Assembly (NCBI RefSeq): GCF_014202935.1
Contig: NZ_JACHHX010000008.1
Location: 62,001-126,000 of the forward strand
DNA length: 64,000 bases
Direction: 5' to 3'
Origin: Rehaibacterium terrae
Lineage (GTDB): Bacteria; Pseudomonadota; Gammaproteobacteria; Xanthomonadales; Xanthomonadaceae
The stretch's first letter is position 1, and the number at the start of each line of letters is the position of its first letter. The notes beneath the pieces are model-generated. The model was not told where the DNA came from, made no database searches, and saw only the letters and a list, made by a program, of their open reading frames with translations. Positions 49,858 to 58,665 of the stretch are shown here, in pieces. The position numbers and the translations under genes were made by a program.

Positions 49858-50045
49858 GGCCCGTTGGTTCCCGGTCATCGATCGGCCGGGATTGAAAGGG
49901 AAGCCGGTGAGACTCCGGCGCTGCCCCGCAGCGGTATTGGGAAACGAAAGCCGTCGATGGCACTGGGATCCTGGATCCTGGGAAGCCCGGCCGGTAGGTG
50001 AGGCGACCGCCTCGCGTCCCTGAGCCCGAAGACCTGCCAACAGCC
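49858..50045 (+). promoter_or_regulatory. Cobalamin (adenosylcobalamin) riboswitch
   Basis: The aptamer is recognisable by its conserved blocks in order: TTGGTTCCCGGTCAT at the 5' side, then AAGCCGGTGAGACTCCGGCG and CTGCCCCGCAGCGGTA (the B12 box region), then GGCACTGGGATCC, and finally GAAGACCTGCCAA. It precedes nrdA by about 240 bases on the same strand. A following hairpin CCGCGCG/CGCGCGG at about 50044-50066 may be part of the switch. By family precedent, bound cobalamin turns the downstream gene off. Confidence 0.9.
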
Positions 50046-50285
50046 GCGCGCCGCACGAACGCGCGGTCCCGGCTGAAGGACCTTTCGCGGGAAAGGCGGC
50101 CGGACGCGATGCCTGCCCGTCCGCGGCCGGCCTGCGTCCGTCCCTTTCCTCCCGGAAGCTCCGGCGCCCGCGGGGGCGCGACCGGATGCCGCGCGCCGCG
50201 TGCGCGTCCGCATCCTGCCGTGTTCCCGTGTCCGCGGTCCTGCGAGGGACGGGCCGCGCCACGTGCGACACCGCAGGAAGTCGCC

Positions 50286-52673
50286 ATGACCACCACCACC
50301 GCCCCGGCCGATGCCGCCCGCCCCGGCACCGCGCCCCGTCTCGAACTGACCCCACCGCCGCACGCCGGCGGCATGACCGTCACCAAGCGCAACGGCCGCC
50401 GCGAGCCGGTCGACCTCAACAAGATCCTGCGCGCCATCCAGCGCTGCTGCGATGGTCTGTACGCGGTCGATCCGATGCGCATCGCCACCCGCACCATCTC
50501 CGGCCTGTACGACGGCGCCAGCACCCGCGAACTGGACGAGCTGTCGATCCGCACCGCCGCCCTGCTCACCGCCGAGGAGCCCGAGTACGGCCGGCTGGCC
50601 GCGCGCCTGCTGGCCAACGTGATCGCCAAGGAGGTCGCCGGCCAGGAGATCCACGCCTTCTCGCAGGCGATCGCCCGCGGCCACGAACTGGGCCTGATCG
50701 GCGAGCGCCTGCTCGGCTTCGTCCAGGCGCACGCGCGCAAGCTCAACGACGCCCTCGATCCGGCGCTCGACCGGCGCTTCGAGTACTTCGGCCTGCGCAC
50801 GCTGTACGACCGCTACCTGCTCAAGCATCCGGGCACGCGGCGGGTCATCGAGACCCCGCAGCAGTTCTTCCTGCGCATCGCCTGCGCGCTGAGCGAGGAC
50901 GTCAACGAGGCGCTGGCGCTGTACCGGCGCATGGCCGAGCTCGACTACCTGCCCAGCTCGCCGACCCTGTTCAACGCTGGCACGACCCACGAGCAGCTGT
51001 CCTCCTGCTTCCTGCTCGACTCGCCGGCCGACTCGCTGGAGGCGATCTACCAGCGCTATGCCGACGTCGCCATGCTGAGCAAGTTCTCCGGCGGCATCGG
51101 CCTGTCCTACAGCCGCGTGCGCTCGCGCGGCTCGCTGATCCGCAGCACCAACGGCCTGTCCAACGGCATCGTGCCCTGGCTGAAGACGCTGGATGCCTCG
51201 GTGGCCGCGGTCAACCAGGGCGGCAAGCGCAAGGGCGCCTGCTGCGTGTATCTGGAGCCCTGGCATGCCGACATCGAGGAGTTCCTCGAACTGCGCGACA
51301 ACACCGGCGACGAGGCGCGCCGCACCCACAACCTCAACCTCGCCAACTGGATCCCCGACCTGTTCATGCGCCGGGTCGAGGCCGATGCGATGTGGTCGCT
51401 GTTCGATCCCAAGACGGTGCCGGAGCTGGTCGACCTCTGGGGCGAGGCCTTCGAGCGCGCCTACGAGCAGGCCGAGGCGCGCGGGCTGGCGCAGCGCCAG
51501 GTGCGCGCGCGCGAGCTGTACGCGCGGATGATGCGCACCCTGGCCCAGACCGGCAACGGCTGGGTGACCTTCAAGGACAAGGCCAACCGCGCCTGCAACC
51601 AGACTGCGAAGCCGGGCAACGTCGTGCACCTGTCGAACCTGTGCACCGAGATCCTCGAAGTCACCTCGGCCGGGGAAACCGCCGTCTGCAACCTCGGCTC
51701 GATCAACCTCGCCCGCCACCTCGACGACGACGGCGAATTCGACTTCGACAAGCTGGCCGAGACCGTGCGGCTGGCGGTGCGCCAGCTCGACCGCGTCATC
51801 GACCTCAACTTCTACCCGATCGAGTCGGCGCGCCGCGGCAACCTGCGCTGGCGGCCGGTGGGACTGGGCGTGATGGGCCTGCAGGACGTGTTCTTCCGCC
51901 GCCGCCTGCCGTTCGACGCGCCCGAGGCGCGCGCGCTGTCGCGGCGCATCGCCGAGGAAATCTATTTCCACGCCCTGCAGGCCTCCTGCGAGCTGGCCGA
52001 GGAGAAGGGCGCGCACCCGGCCTTCGCCGACACCCGCGCCGCCGCCGGCGAGCTGCAGTTCGATGCCTGGGGCGTGACCCCGGAGCAGCCGGCGCGCTGG
52101 GATGCGCTGCGCGCGCGCATCGCGCGTCACGGCCTGCGCAACTCGCTGCTGATCGCGATCGCGCCGACCGCCACCATCGCCTCGATCGCCGGCTGCTACG
52201 AATGCGTCGAGCCGCAGGTGAGCAACCTGTTCAAGCGCGAGACGCTGTCCGGCGACTTCCTGCAGGTCAACCGCTACCTGGTCGAGGAGCTGAAGAAACT
52301 CGGCCTGTGGACGCCGGAGCTGCGCGACCGCATCAAGCTGGCGGAAGGCTCGGTGCAGTCGATCGAAGCCATCCCGGCCGAGCTGCGCGCCGTCTACCGC
52401 ACCGCCTGGGAAATCCCGATGCGGTCGCTGATCGACATGGCCGCCGAGCGCGGCGCCTTCATCGACCAGGCGCAGTCGCTCAACCTGTTCATGGAGAACC
52501 CGAACATCGGCGCGCTCAGCTCGATGTACATGTACGCCTGGAAGCGCGGCCTCAAGACCACCTACTACCTGCGCTCGCGCCCGGCCACCCGCATCGCCAA
52601 GGCCACGGTCAGCGACACCGCCGCGGTGGTGTGCTCGCTGGAGAACCCCGAAGCCTGCGAGGCCTGCCAGTAG
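50286..52673 (+). CDS. nrdA: Ribonucleoside-diphosphate reductase alpha subunit (class I)
   Basis: A 795-residue catalytic subunit that makes deoxyribonucleotides. An ATP-cone (about residues 30-120; MTVTKRNGRREPVDLNKIL) gives allosteric control. Catalytic residues are visible: Cys in SSCFLLDS, NLCTEI (Asn, thiyl-radical Cys, Glu), the second redox Cys in AVCNLGSINL, the Tyr pair in GLKTTYYLRS and the C-terminal CEAC. GGAAG precedes the ATG, which is better than earlier in-frame ATGs reading through the leader. It is controlled by the upstream cobalamin riboswitch. Its partner nrdB should follow directly but is displaced by an inserted gene. Confidence 0.97.
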   Translation: MTTTTAPADAARPGTAPRLELTPPPHAGGMTVTKRNGRREPVDLNKILRAIQRCCDGLYAVDPMRIATRTISGLYDGASTRELDELSIRTAALLTAEEPEYGRLAARLLANVIAKEVAGQEIHAFSQAIARGHELGLIGERLLGFVQAHARKLNDALDPALDRRFEYFGLRTLYDRYLLKHPGTRRVIETPQQFFLRIACALSEDVNEALALYRRMAELDYLPSSPTLFNAGTTHEQLSSCFLLDSPADSLEAIYQRYADVAMLSKFSGGIGLSYSRVRSRGSLIRSTNGLSNGIVPWLKTLDASVAAVNQGGKRKGACCVYLEPWHADIEEFLELRDNTGDEARRTHNLNLANWIPDLFMRRVEADAMWSLFDPKTVPELVDLWGEAFERAYEQAEARGLAQRQVRARELYARMMRTLAQTGNGWVTFKDKANRACNQTAKPGNVVHLSNLCTEILEVTSAGETAVCNLGSINLARHLDDDGEFDFDKLAETVRLAVRQLDRVIDLNFYPIESARRGNLRWRPVGLGVMGLQDVFFRRRLPFDAPEARALSRRIAEEIYFHALQASCELAEEKGAHPAFADTRAAAGELQFDAWGVTPEQPARWDALRARIARHGLRNSLLIAIAPTATIASIAGCYECVEPQVSNLFKRETLSGDFLQVNRYLVEELKKLGLWTPELRDRIKLAEGSVQSIEAIPAELRAVYRTAWEIPMRSLIDMAAERGAFIDQAQSLNLFMENPNIGALSSMYMYAWKRGLKTTYYLRSRPATRIAKATVSDTAAVVCSLENPEACEACQ

Positions 52674-52687
52674 GCGAGTGGGGAGCC

Positions 52688-53211
52688 ACGAGTGAGGAGG
52701 AGTGGGAAACGAGAGAAAAGCGCCGGGCAGGCCGGTCACGTCCGTCCGGCCCGCTCACATCACGCCTGCGCTTTTCGTCCTGACCGTGCCGTCTTCTCGG
52801 GAGATTCGCGGCGCCGACGTCTGAGTGCGGTGAGCATCCTGCTGACTTCATCGATGGCATTGCGCATGGAACGGCTTTCCCGTTCGGGGAACCAGCCGAC
52901 CTGCTCGCAGAGCGTGAGCAGGGTTTCCAGTTCCGCCGCCGAACCATGGGCGATGGCGAGGAAGTGGGCCTTGTCTCTCGTGGCCTCCCGTGTCCACCCT
53001 TCGGCGATGTTGCAGGCCACCGATACGGCCGCACGTGTCATTTGTGACCGTACACCGTACAACTCCTCGCGCGGAAGGCGCGGCACCAGTCGATACACCT
53101 CGCGTACAACCTCCATGGCGCGTTTCCATACTTCCGTATTCCGGTAATGCATATGACCTCCATTGTCACGACCAACGTACCCATCCTGGTTTCTCACTCC
53201 TCCTCACTCGT
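52688..53211. mobile_element. Putative inverted-repeat-bounded element inserted between nrdA and nrdB
   Basis: The stretch is bounded by a 23-base sequence at 52688-52710 (ACGAGTGAGGAGGAGTGG and following GAAAC) and its near-exact reverse complement at 53189-53211 (22 of 23 matching). Inside lies a single gene on the minus strand, a four-helix-bundle protein, opposite to nrdA and nrdB. The left end begins 14 bases after the nrdA stop. The right end lies inside the nrdB reading frame. No transposase is present. Whether the unit moves, and how, is inference; the geometry and the in-frame reading into nrdB are directly visible. Confidence 0.6.
52760..53152 (-). CDS. Four-helix-bundle protein of the S23 / rRNA intervening-sequence family
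   Basis: A 130-residue protein with the family pattern: YRNTEVWKRAMEVVREVY, LPREELYGVRSQMTRAAVSV, ACNIAEGWTR, FLAIAHGSAAELETLL and LCEQVGW. The tail after about residue 110 is Arg/Lys-rich (LTALRRRRRESPEKTARSGR). Relatives were first seen within 23S rRNA intervening sequences and include the accessory Avd protein of diversity-generating retroelements, but no reverse transcriptase is present here. The start codon abuts the nrdB start on the other strand (CATATG). Function unknown. It is antisense to the nrdA-nrdB path and flanked by inverted repeats. Confidence 0.85.
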   Translation of the reverse strand: MHYRNTEVWKRAMEVVREVYRLVPRLPREELYGVRSQMTRAAVSVACNIAEGWTREATRDKAHFLAIAHGSAAELETLLTLCEQVGWFPERESRSMRNAIDEVSRMLTALRRRRRESPEKTARSGRKAQA

Positions 53212-54214
53212 TTCTCGTCTGCTCGACCCCGGCTTCGACCTTACCCTGCGGCCGATGCGCTATCCGCAGTTCTACGAGATGTACCGCGACGCGATCCGCA
53301 ACACCTGGACCGTCGAGGAGGTCGACTTCTCGCTCGACGTCAACGACCTCAGGCACAAGCTCGGCCCGGCCGAGCGGCACCTGATCGAGCGGCTGGTGGC
53401 CTTCTTCGCCACCGGCGACTCGATCGTCGCCAACAACCTGGTGCTCAACCTCTACCAGCACATCAATGCCCCGGAGGCGCGCATGTACCTCTCGCGGCAA
53501 CTGTTCGAGGAGGCGCTGCATGTGCAGTTCTACCTGACCCTGCTCGACACCTACCTGCCCGAGCCGGAGGCGCGCGCGCGCGCCTTCGCCGCGGTCGAGA
53601 ACATCCCCTCGATCCGCCGCAAGGCCGAGTTCTGCTTCAAGTGGATGGATTCCATCCAGAACCTCCAGCGCATCGAGACCGGCGCGCAGCGGCGGCAGTT
53701 CCTGCTCAACCTGGTCTGCTTCGCCGCCTGCATCGAGGGCCTGTTCTTCTTCGCCGCCTTCGCCTACGTCTACTACCTGCGCTCGCGCGGGCTGCTGCCG
53801 GGCCTGGCTTCGGGCACCAACTGGGTGTTCCGCGACGAGAGCGGTCACATGGCCTTCGCCTTCGAGGTGATCCGGGTCGTGCGCGAGGAGGAGCCGGCGC
53901 TGTTCGACGAGGCGTTGCGGCACGACATCGTGCGGATGCTGGAAGAGGCGGTGGACTGCGAATACCGCTTTGCCGAGGACGTGCTCTCCGGCGGCGTCGC
54001 CGGACTGTCGCTGCGCGACATGCGGCAGTACCTGGAATACGTCGCCGACCTGCGCCTGAAGCAGCTCGGCCTGCCGGCCCGCTTCGGTGCCGGCAACCCG
54101 TTCGCCTTCATGGACCTGCAGGACGTGCAGGAGCTGACCAACTTCTTCGAGCGCCGCGTCTCCGCCTACCAGGTCGGCGTGCAGGGCGAGGTCACCTTCG
54201 ACGCGGCGTTCTGA
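53147..54214 (+). CDS. nrdB: Ribonucleoside-diphosphate reductase beta subunit (class I)
   Basis: A radical-generating subunit of about 353-355 residues. Metal ligands are in place: Asp in VEEVDFS, Glu and His in FEEALH, the radical Tyr four residues later (HVQFY), Glu in ACIEGLFFF, and Glu/His in RDESGHMAF. It passes its radical to NrdA. The normal family N-terminus begins near LLDPGFDLTLRPMRYP. Here it is preceded by MTSIVTTNVPILVSHSSSLV and SR, of which VSHSSSLVSR is encoded by the flanking repeat, so the start appears to have been replaced by inserted DNA. The ATGs at 53147 and 53153 are both possible; neither has a good ribosome-binding site. Confidence 0.92.
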   Translation: MHMTSIVTTNVPILVSHSSSLVSRLLDPGFDLTLRPMRYPQFYEMYRDAIRNTWTVEEVDFSLDVNDLRHKLGPAERHLIERLVAFFATGDSIVANNLVLNLYQHINAPEARMYLSRQLFEEALHVQFYLTLLDTYLPEPEARARAFAAVENIPSIRRKAEFCFKWMDSIQNLQRIETGAQRRQFLLNLVCFAACIEGLFFFAAFAYVYYLRSRGLLPGLASGTNWVFRDESGHMAFAFEVIRVVREEEPALFDEALRHDIVRMLEEAVDCEYRFAEDVLSGGVAGLSLRDMRQYLEYVADLRLKQLGLPARFGAGNPFAFMDLQDVQELTNFFERRVSAYQVGVQGEVTFDAAF

Positions 54215-54256: not shown

Positions 54257-54623
54257 GACACCACCCCCACCCAACCCTCCCCCTGAGGGGGAGGGCTTCA
54301 AGAGATGCGTCGCCACTTCCTCCGACGGCGAGGGCAGCAAAGGCAAACTCCGTCCACCACCGAAGCGACGCTTCGCTCGCTCCTCCTCAGGGGGAGGGCT
54401 TTGTGGCGAGATACCGCCACCTTTCTGCAAAGCGAGTGGAGGATGGCCGGCACGGCCCGCCACCGAGGCGGCGCTTCGCTCGCTCCTCCTCATGGGGAGG
54501 GCTTTGTGGCGAGATACCGCCACCTTTCTGCAGAGCGAGTGGAGGATGGCCAGCACGGCCCGCCACCGAAGCGGCGCTTTGCTCCCTCCCCCTCAGGGGG
54601 AGGGTTGGGGTGGGGGTGGTGTC
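54257..54623. repeat. Composite repeat: 39-base inverted ends around tandem 103-bp units
   Basis: The whole gap between nrdB and the amidohydrolase gene is repeat DNA. The left end (54257-54295, from GACACCACCCCCACCCAAC to CCCCTGAGGGGGAGGG) and the right end (54584-54623) are reverse complements apart from one extra G. Between them two nearly identical 103-base units start at 54398 and 54501 (GCTTTGTGGCGAGATACCGC...), after a diverged third unit. The ends contain the CTCCCCCT-AGGGGGAG palindrome common in dispersed proteobacterial repeats. No convincing gene lies in this stretch. Confidence 0.8.

Positions 54624-57379: not shown

Positions 57380-57391
<12 letters not shown>
56018..57391 (+). 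CDS. Polytopic membrane protein, function unknown
   Basis: A 457-residue integral membrane protein with about ten helices, for example APWLAAAAGLAFSLAAF and ALAVLLVGLWPASLGLLP, with a large extracytoplasmic loop from about residue 215 to 345. The N-terminal LTYDSALQWLQARHGEYSDI and HPPAMAMLWR region resembles the Asp-containing first loop of GT-C glycosyltransferases and related DUFs; this is an impression, not an identification. It overlaps the amidohydrolase stop by four bases. Its last codons (RRSE-stop) lie inside the first unit of a 14-base tandem repeat, so the C-terminus may have been altered by the repeat. Confidence 0.7.
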
Positions 57392-57565
<174 letters not shown>

Positions 57566-58503: not shown

Positions 58504-58540
58504 CCGCCACGCCCTTCGCAGCGGCTTCGGCCACGACCGA

Positions 58541-58665
58541 GTGATGAGGAGCGAGTGAAGAGGAGTGAGGAGTGAGAGAAAGCATCGGCTCGCCGAAGTC
58601 CCTCTCATCTCTCATTTCTCACTCCTCTTCACTCACCCCTCTTCACTCGTTTCTCGCTCCTGGAG
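58541..58665. repeat. G/A-rich inverted repeat between queF and TonB receptor
   Basis: The left arm carries GAGGAGCGAGTGAAGAGGAG and TGAGGAGTGAGAG, followed by AAGCATCGGCTCGCC. The right arm (58599-58664) is its approximate reverse complement (TTTCTCACTCCTCTTCACTC and CGTTTCTCGCTCC). The unit is built from the same 14-base motif as 57380-57547 and the same core as the nrdA-nrdB element, but without a gene inside. It lies between convergent genes and could form a large hairpin. Confidence 0.75.

Follow-up and report, generated by a model that had tools for sequence, protein, structure and literature searches.

The S23 Locus Between nrdA and nrdB

The window, by which is meant the whole stretch of 64,000 nucleotides of Rehaibacterium terrae DNA that was analysed, contains the genes for both subunits of class I ribonucleotide reductase (RNR). 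Between these two forward-strand genes lies a gene of the S23/IVP family, antisense to both and bracketed by inverted arms. The features of the locus and of its surroundings are as follows:

49998..52673, + strand: nrdA, RNR large subunit, the upstream gene (PF02867, E 9.9e-199; PF03477, ATP-cone); true start uncertain
52683..52713: left inverted arm, 9 nt past the nrdA stop; G-rich on the + strand
52715..52776: small inner hairpin, GAAAAGCGCCGG / CCTGCGCTTTTC, adjoining the left arm (repeat search)
52760..53152, - strand: gene for an S23/IVP four-helix bundle of 130 aa, start ATG at 53152 (PF05635, TIGR02436, PDB 2gsc)
53153..54214, + strand: nrdB, RNR small subunit (PF00268, E 3.2e-80); start at 53147 or 53153, uncertain
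53186..53216: right inverted arm, within the 5' coding sequence of nrdB, translated as ...LVSHSSSLVSRLLDPGF
57380..57542, + strand: 14-bp (2 x 7) unit, AGGAGTGAGGGAAG, in 11.6 tandem copies, of the word family of the S23 arms (Tandem Repeats Finder)
58538..58649: inverted bracket without S23, again of this word family, with 42-nt arms at 58538-58579 and 58608-58649, 88% complementary, around a 28-nt loop (repeat search)

An earlier reading of this DNA, made from the sequence only, had noticed a 23-mer at 52688-52710 that recurs inverted at 53189-53211 with one mismatch, around one S23-type gene opposite to the RNR genes. This description holds, and a repeat search extends the arms to 31 nt (52683-52713 and 53186-53216; 87% complementary, with 472 nt between them). 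The right arm is not intergenic but coding DNA, contributing to ...VSHSSSLVSRLLDPGF at the NrdB N-terminus. An element confined to 52688-53211 was rejected, because the arms are longer and the right one is coding. The same reading had seen no transposase in the element, and none is evident between the arms. The S23 gene matches PF05635 (E 5.7e-34) and TIGR02436 (E 1.4e-33), both above cut-off, and the closest solved structure to its product is 2gsc/XCC0516 (E 1.8e-22). In the predicted nrdAB RNA the arms pair with each other in both the minimum-energy and the centroid structures (z -3.57, 0 of 100 shuffles).

The sequence-only reading had proposed searching the genome for further copies of the ends and of S23 genes between them. 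The former exist and the latter do not, S23 being single-copy: a 27-mer of the end sequence has 16 genomic sites at three or fewer mismatches, compared with one for its reversed control; both arms are among the 16, as are five sites that overlap within one array. Of 13 site contexts, at least 10 show by eye an inverted partner and no S23 gene, and one such bracket lies in the window at 58538-58649. By eye, boxes resembling the GAAAAGC of the inner hairpin also stand next to arms in some brackets that have no S23. In the window, CACTCCTCNCTC was matched once, no more than expected by chance. Just downstream of nrdB, at 54357-54604, lie 2.4 copies of a 103-bp repeat.

The nrdA-nrdB Junction in Relatives

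Among 119 genomes, including that of R. terrae, 55 have an NrdB match at E<=1e-60, and the nrdA-nrdB spacers of all 55 were extracted. An S23 gene occupies the junction in 10 of the 55, R. terrae included, with spacers of 481-868 nt, and all 10 units share the site and the antisense orientation to nrdAB; the idea of a locus-specific oddity was rejected on these grounds. GGAGTGA/GGAACGA-like arms are seen by eye on both sides of the S23 gene in 10/10 of these spacers, inverted halves of at least 14 in eight and period 7 in five, so that the same gene at the same locus carries flanking repeats in the relatives too. The arrangement recurs in Rhodanobacter OK091 and Stenotrophomonas koreensis. A Nostoc edaphicum plasmid has another S23 gene antisense at nrdA-nrdB, and its position outside the nrd clade of the S23 tree makes it seem that the junction was used more than once by S23.

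The other 45 junctions are without S23 and have spacers of 26-628 nt. Period 7 occurs in none of the 30 S23-less spacers of at least 120 nt, seven of which contain inverted repeats of another kind. The state of the junction differs within six sister-species pairs from six genera (G009/G058, G003/G054, G022/G066, G028/G070, G062/G016 and G111/G105), and in two of these genomes, G066 and G016, S23 is absent from the junction and present elsewhere. The sequence-only reading had taken the unit for an insertion, which is correct relative to most relatives, where nrdA and nrdB can lie as close as 26 nt. The mobility that it attached to this insertion was not borne out. No target-site duplication was seen by eye in filled and S23-less junctions, the spacers of sister species being too diverged to align, and no clean empty site was found among the 55 junctions, a set with none at short distance. 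The nrd label on the S23 tree needs five changes, compared with a mean of 9.6 in 500 shuffles, none of which was as low, a count that would not separate vertical loss from repeated gain of the nrd-S23 unit, the trees having ~105 columns and many open forks.

Several other features were observed at this junction. In G039, a genome without S23, an antisense GIY-YIG gene (L030, 2554-3096; PF01541, E 1.8e-14) sits between nrdA and nrdB, flanked by 38-44 nt inverted repeats of another kind, which suggests that the junction may be an insertion hotspot. Four spacers (L043, L086, L089 and L094) hold a small sense ORF resembling KTSC-domain proteins; the KTSC-like peptide from one S23-less junction had no Pfam match. 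The nrdA-S23 spacer of G062 (L115) contains about four tandem copies of a ~100-bp unit that includes an inverted arm pair (by eye). Near the start of the S23-less spacer of G018 (L104) is an arm-like stretch, GGCAGGAGTGGGGAACGAGG, perhaps a leftover of S23 loss.

Inverted Heptamers Around S23 Genes Across Phyla

A survey of S23 flanks combined 30 loci from the genomes of relatives with the best 80 of 566 named ones, repeats having no part in the choice, and covered Pseudomonadota, Bacteroidota, Bacillota, Planctomycetota, Chloroflexota, Acidobacteriota, Fibrobacterota, archaea and others. Three of the 110 loci were dropped for short flanks, leaving 107; flanks were 350 bp and outer controls were taken 850-1200 bp out. 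From the 119-genome set, 77 of 81 S23 places were used; the four left out, two in G023 and one in each of G088 and G047, were weak or fragmentary.

The best inverted match between the two flanks reached at least 14 at 81 of the 107 S23 loci and at 0 of 87 outer controls. When left and right flanks were taken from different loci, 26 of 1274 pairs reached this value (mean 8.74); the cross-locus maximum of 28, exceeded by only 9 of the 107 own pairs, is as high as it is because unrelated loci can share words. Inverted matches beat direct ones at 95 of 107 loci. The repeats are built in sevens: runs of at least 12 at lag 7 occur in 94/211 S23 flanks compared with 7/204 controls, and at lag 14 in 79/211, while lags 4-6 and 8-13 give at most 5/211. 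Period-7 runs of at least 9 are present in 123 of 208 gaps adjoining S23 and in 18 of 110 other gaps of the same loci, and the corresponding figures for the best of lags 8, 10 and 11 are 17/208 and 2/110. The tie between the S23 fold and inverted repeats, for which the sequence-only reading had a single example, is therefore real and, by this survey and its cross-locus controls, general across phyla.

In an extended set, 120 of 157 S23 loci have arms and 37 are without arms at threshold. The arms have a polarity, in that the G-rich strand points at S23: G exceeds C in 108 of the 120 left arms, is below it in 10 and equals it in two. The modal arm length is four heptamer units (52/120). An alignment of the 74 distinct words gives T-[AC]-G-[GT]-[GA]-A-N, with an information of 3.11 compared with a mean of 2.55 and a maximum of 2.76 in 40 shuffled runs, which had fewer restarts each than the real data. 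Among four cyanobacterial plasmid S23 genes, arms are visible by eye at three (L286, L287 and L288) and doubtful at L289. The 20 loci scanned with Rfam, of the 80 named ones, contain no rRNA; an rRNA location was rejected on this basis and because the site in the window is the nrdA-nrdB junction.

Heptamer Words and S23 Lineage

The S23 tree unites all 10 nrd-S23 genes in a 19-row clade (100/98) that also holds four named S23 genes and the five of G033. Two further clades, of 17 rows (98/92) and 9 rows (99/96), lie at accB-accC and carA-carB, respectively, and tblastn confirmed these sites for every row of both. Three more S23 genes at carA-carB (L055, L072 and L163) are placed outside the main carA-carB clade, and this junction, too, seems from the tree to have been used repeatedly by S23. 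Each clade has its own words and variants: GGAGTGA/GGAACGA at nrd, GGGATTC/GTGATTC at acc, and GGGGACC/GGGACCC/GGGACTC at car.

The distance between words grows with that between S23 proteins, from 0.30 mismatches at protein distances below 0.2 to ~3.3 above 0.5 (Mantel r 0.292, 0 of 2000 permutations, with 103 of the 120 arm-bearing loci). Within a genome, the words of two S23 genes differ about as much as those of random pairs (3.23 and 3.30; 22 pairs). By these sequence comparisons, it is the S23 lineage and not the host that the word follows. The idea that a host genome has a single word was rejected, as words differ among the S23 loci of a single genome. For example, the 2.3-Mb genome G033 has five S23 genes (L196-L200) at five sites with different words, and blastn among these loci found the self arms and two short stretches within S23 only, with no shared flank. 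The two arms also co-vary at orthologous sites, with 0 of 5000 permutations equalling the data at nrd (n=10) and at acc (n=17) and 1 of 5000 at car (n=8).

Dispersed Brackets and the IcmF Linker

Heptamer words were also counted over the 119 genomes by pattern, overlapping matches in long arrays being included. Doubled GGGAWTC with at least 10 matches was found in 21 of 53 S23-bearing and 4 of 66 S23-less genomes (P 8.6e-6), and within the family in 18/33 and 4/38 (P 8.2e-5). The corresponding figures for GGGACCN are 8/53 and 0/66 (P 1.1e-3). The genomes in these tests are related to one another, and kinship was addressed by the within-family repeat and by sister-species comparisons only. GARYGAG, the nrd-type pattern, occurs at least twice in 8 of 10 nrd-S23 genomes and in 2 of 43 other S23-bearing ones (P 2.1e-6); at 10 or more matches it has no association with S23 presence (5/53 and 2/66; P 0.24), and its reversed control is not independent, with 115 matches in G062. 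A swap of words is seen within one genus, in which GGGAWTC and GARYGAG have 274 and 0 matches in G016, with an acc-S23 gene, and 4 and 274 in G062, with an nrd-S23 gene. Repeats elsewhere in the genomes thus match the S23 type and do not lie everywhere without association with S23 genes.

The association is not absolute. R. terrae itself has 52 GGGAWTC and 21 GGGACCN matches, yet no S23 gene of those types, and word counts of at least 10 are found in the S23-less genomes G012, G015, G031, G039, G046 and G048. Because brackets occur in such genomes as well, S23 is not needed to keep them. Twenty S23-less pairs were fetched, chosen as convergent and hence uninformative on polarity. Many lie at gene junctions, and some share a junction across genomes with different words, as at rplK (L236, L244), guaA (L249, L253) and ettA (L241, L246). 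The names rplK, guaA, ettA, pyrF and IcmF were each checked on one locus, second loci and other names were assigned by eye, and several pairs are unnamed.

In the fused mutase IcmF (best NCBIfam match NF045497, from partial sequence), inverted heptamer arms enclose a conserved native coding segment, in frame, inside one gene (L256-L285). Twelve of 30 IcmF linkers score at least 14, nine in S23-bearing and three in S23-less genomes (G054, G048 and G039, with a partial one in G004); of the remaining 18, 12 are 171-204 nt long. Across all 30 linkers the arms of a pair change together between genomes (13.3 with their own partner, 8.1 with another; 0 of 5000). In 7 of the 10 genomes compared, the IcmF word is identical to the word of one of the genome's own S23 genes (1 of 20000 permutations); G036, G000 and G091 are the exceptions. 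The words were read by eye, S23-less genomes lay outside the comparison, and G019 was left out for want of an S23 arm word. The arms, which vary together and mostly follow the S23 word, can thus form around native sequence and have their word replaced. They are not explained by a simple cut-and-paste element, which would not place its ends around native coding sequence.

A Proposed Role for S23 Proteins

The feature in the window is best read as an S23 unit, that is, an S23 gene between inverted heptamer-type arms at an operon junction, the non-rRNA counterpart of the S23-coding IVS of 23S rRNA, whose protein would be the trans-acting partner of the dispersed heptamer brackets. We give this reading a probability of about 0.58. 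According to this proposal, the arms would pair in the nrdAB transcript, as the predicted stem suggests, and leave the antisense S23 gene in a loop, so that the insertion could be tolerated. By analogy with the rRNA elements, the stem might be processed by an enzyme such as RNase III. The S23 protein is an Avd-like bundle, pentameric in the solved relative, and would most likely recognise heptamer stems as RNA or as single-stranded DNA and take part in their spread or homogenisation. Each S23 lineage would keep its own heptamer word, and the brackets of a genome would be rewritten to that word, much as REPINs follow RAYTs.

Two known systems frame this proposal. The S23-coding IVS of 23S rRNA in Leptospira and Coxiella has a scattered distribution, and its mobility is put forward as no more than a hypothesis in the portion of PMC4990558 drawn on here. 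That portion also describes a 28 bp stem (4 x 7) and tandem GACAGAT heptamers beside the ORF in Coxiella, and RNase III cleavage of rRNA IVS in a stem of this kind. Such an IVS shares with the window unit an S23/IVP ORF inside terminal inverted repeats able to form a stem, whereas the window unit lies in a protein operon, has lineage-specific words and is accompanied by S23-less brackets elsewhere in the genome.

In RAYT systems, a gene present once lies between inverted copies of a dispersed repeat, the REPIN, whose sequence follows the lineage of the gene. The S23 gene has the same relation to its repeats. It differs in that S23 is a four-helix bundle, the repeats are tandem heptamers, and a Y1 transposase search (PF01797) found 0 matches in the R. 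terrae genome and matches in 5 of 14 control genomes; a RAYT was rejected for this reason. By comparison with both systems, the organisation can be read as RAYT/REPIN-like but lacking the transposase, and as an rRNA-IVS-like unit outside rRNA. A reverse-transcriptase search (PF00078, RVT_1) likewise gave 0 matches in the R. terrae genome, and 3 of 14 control genomes were positive. In a genome lacking both kinds of match, the unit would need other functions for any movement, or movement has ended here. The earlier view of a mobile unit is weakened accordingly, by the single-copy S23 gene, the want of a reverse-transcriptase or Y1 match in the genome, and the IcmF arms around native coding sequence.

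The proposal has to be weighed against accounts in which the protein has no such role. Host-made heptamer hairpins, formed by slippage, quasi-palindrome conversion or G4-related events, might gather in transcribed spacers, with S23 a neutral or selfish gene landing in or beside them. Brackets without S23, also in S23-less genomes, and IcmF brackets around native coding sequence are what this account would predict, and slippage has been proposed as the origin of known heptamer SSRs in the sections of PMC4692102 consulted. It is nevertheless rather unlikely, because the word follows the S23 lineage and differs among the S23 loci of one genome, nrd-type words mark the nrd-S23 genomes, and arms are far more frequent beside S23 than in the remaining gaps of these loci. 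A purely cis-acting role, in which the arms are kept because their stem in the nrdAB mRNA adjusts the NrdA:NrdB ratio or the stability of the message and S23 is incidental cargo, would fit the pairing of the arms in the predicted RNA, the constant site and orientation of the 10 nrd-S23 units and the several brackets between neighbouring genes. The 45 of 55 junctions that do without the unit, its variable presence between sister species and the brackets at unrelated genes make this role improbable.

An ordinary non-autonomous DNA transposon of the MITE type, mobilised by a transposase in trans, could account for the dispersed S23-less inverted copies, which share arms and, by eye, partly also inner boxes in the R. 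terrae genome. Its terminal sequence, however, should not change from site to site as the words do between loci and genomes, at fixed positions and with no target duplication seen by eye; native DNA between the IcmF arms and the Y1 result, from a search that covered the Y1 family only, add to making it highly improbable. Finally, homology of 2GSC and Avd has been suggested in part of the text of PMC10053308, and the S23 protein has weak matches to bAvd (23.1 bits, cut-off 40) and DivGenRetAVD (26 bits, cut-off 80), as might be expected if S23 were the Avd of a diversity-generating retroelement (DGR) or part of another reverse-transcriptase element. Both scores are below cut-off, and the genome in which RVT_1 has no match is 99.97% complete; a DGR was rejected, and any such origin is hardly credible.

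Heptamer Repeats and Wider Implications

Heptamer repeats themselves are already known, and what is new is their link with S23, for which no precedent was found in the open-licence literature, subscription papers and preprints lying outside that scope. The sections of PMC4692102 available describe heptameric repeats of Xanthomonas and Nostoc with GGGAATC-type words, a modal four units and convergent inverted pairs mostly between aligned genes, and thus resemble the S23-associated arms in word type, unit number and inverted pairing. S23 is absent from its main text, and the same sections name no protein partner and leave the function open. TAACTGA heptamer repeats are described in part of PMC4679880. 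As for membership in the heptameric SSRs (STRR / GGGAATC class), the 7-bp period is found for S23 loci at large and in 5 of the 10 nrd spacers, and is weak at the window's own S23 locus (period-7 scores 5 and 4).

The trans-acting role proposed for the window unit could extend to S23/IVP proteins as a whole. In this broader form, each lineage would recognise its own heptanucleotide word (consensus TMGKRAN) and write or copy paired inverted arrays around transcribed DNA, its own gene included, with no transposase; gene and repeats would then form a class of element unlike transposons, introns, DGRs and REPINs, with the rRNA IVS as a special case. This generalisation is offered tentatively, and the odds are somewhat against it. 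In the portions of the literature surveyed, the S23/IVP family, with its solved structure, rRNA IVS and CRISPR neighbourhoods, is without known function, and the heptanucleotide repeats of Xanthomonas, Nostoc and others are abundant and have no known maker. If S23 is the partner of these repeats, how bacterial heptamer repeats originate and evolve in concert can be tested directly, and a whole protein family gains a function. If the association alone holds, the statement that S23 genes usually carry inverted heptamer arms can serve as an annotation rule.

The CRISPR neighbourhoods may be seen in a similar light. In the part of PMC3936711 drawn on here, 23S_rRNA_IVP genes in cas loci, near cas4 and cas6, are treated as a CRISPR-Cas-associated gene; alternatively, they could be S23 units lodged at operon junctions. 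On Anabaena and Pseudanabaena plasmids, an S23 gene lies between cas6 and cas4 of type I-D CRISPR operons (L286, 2486-2854; L288, 2492-2851), and both genes have arms that are heptamer-like by eye, with the words AGGTGAC and AAAGCTA.
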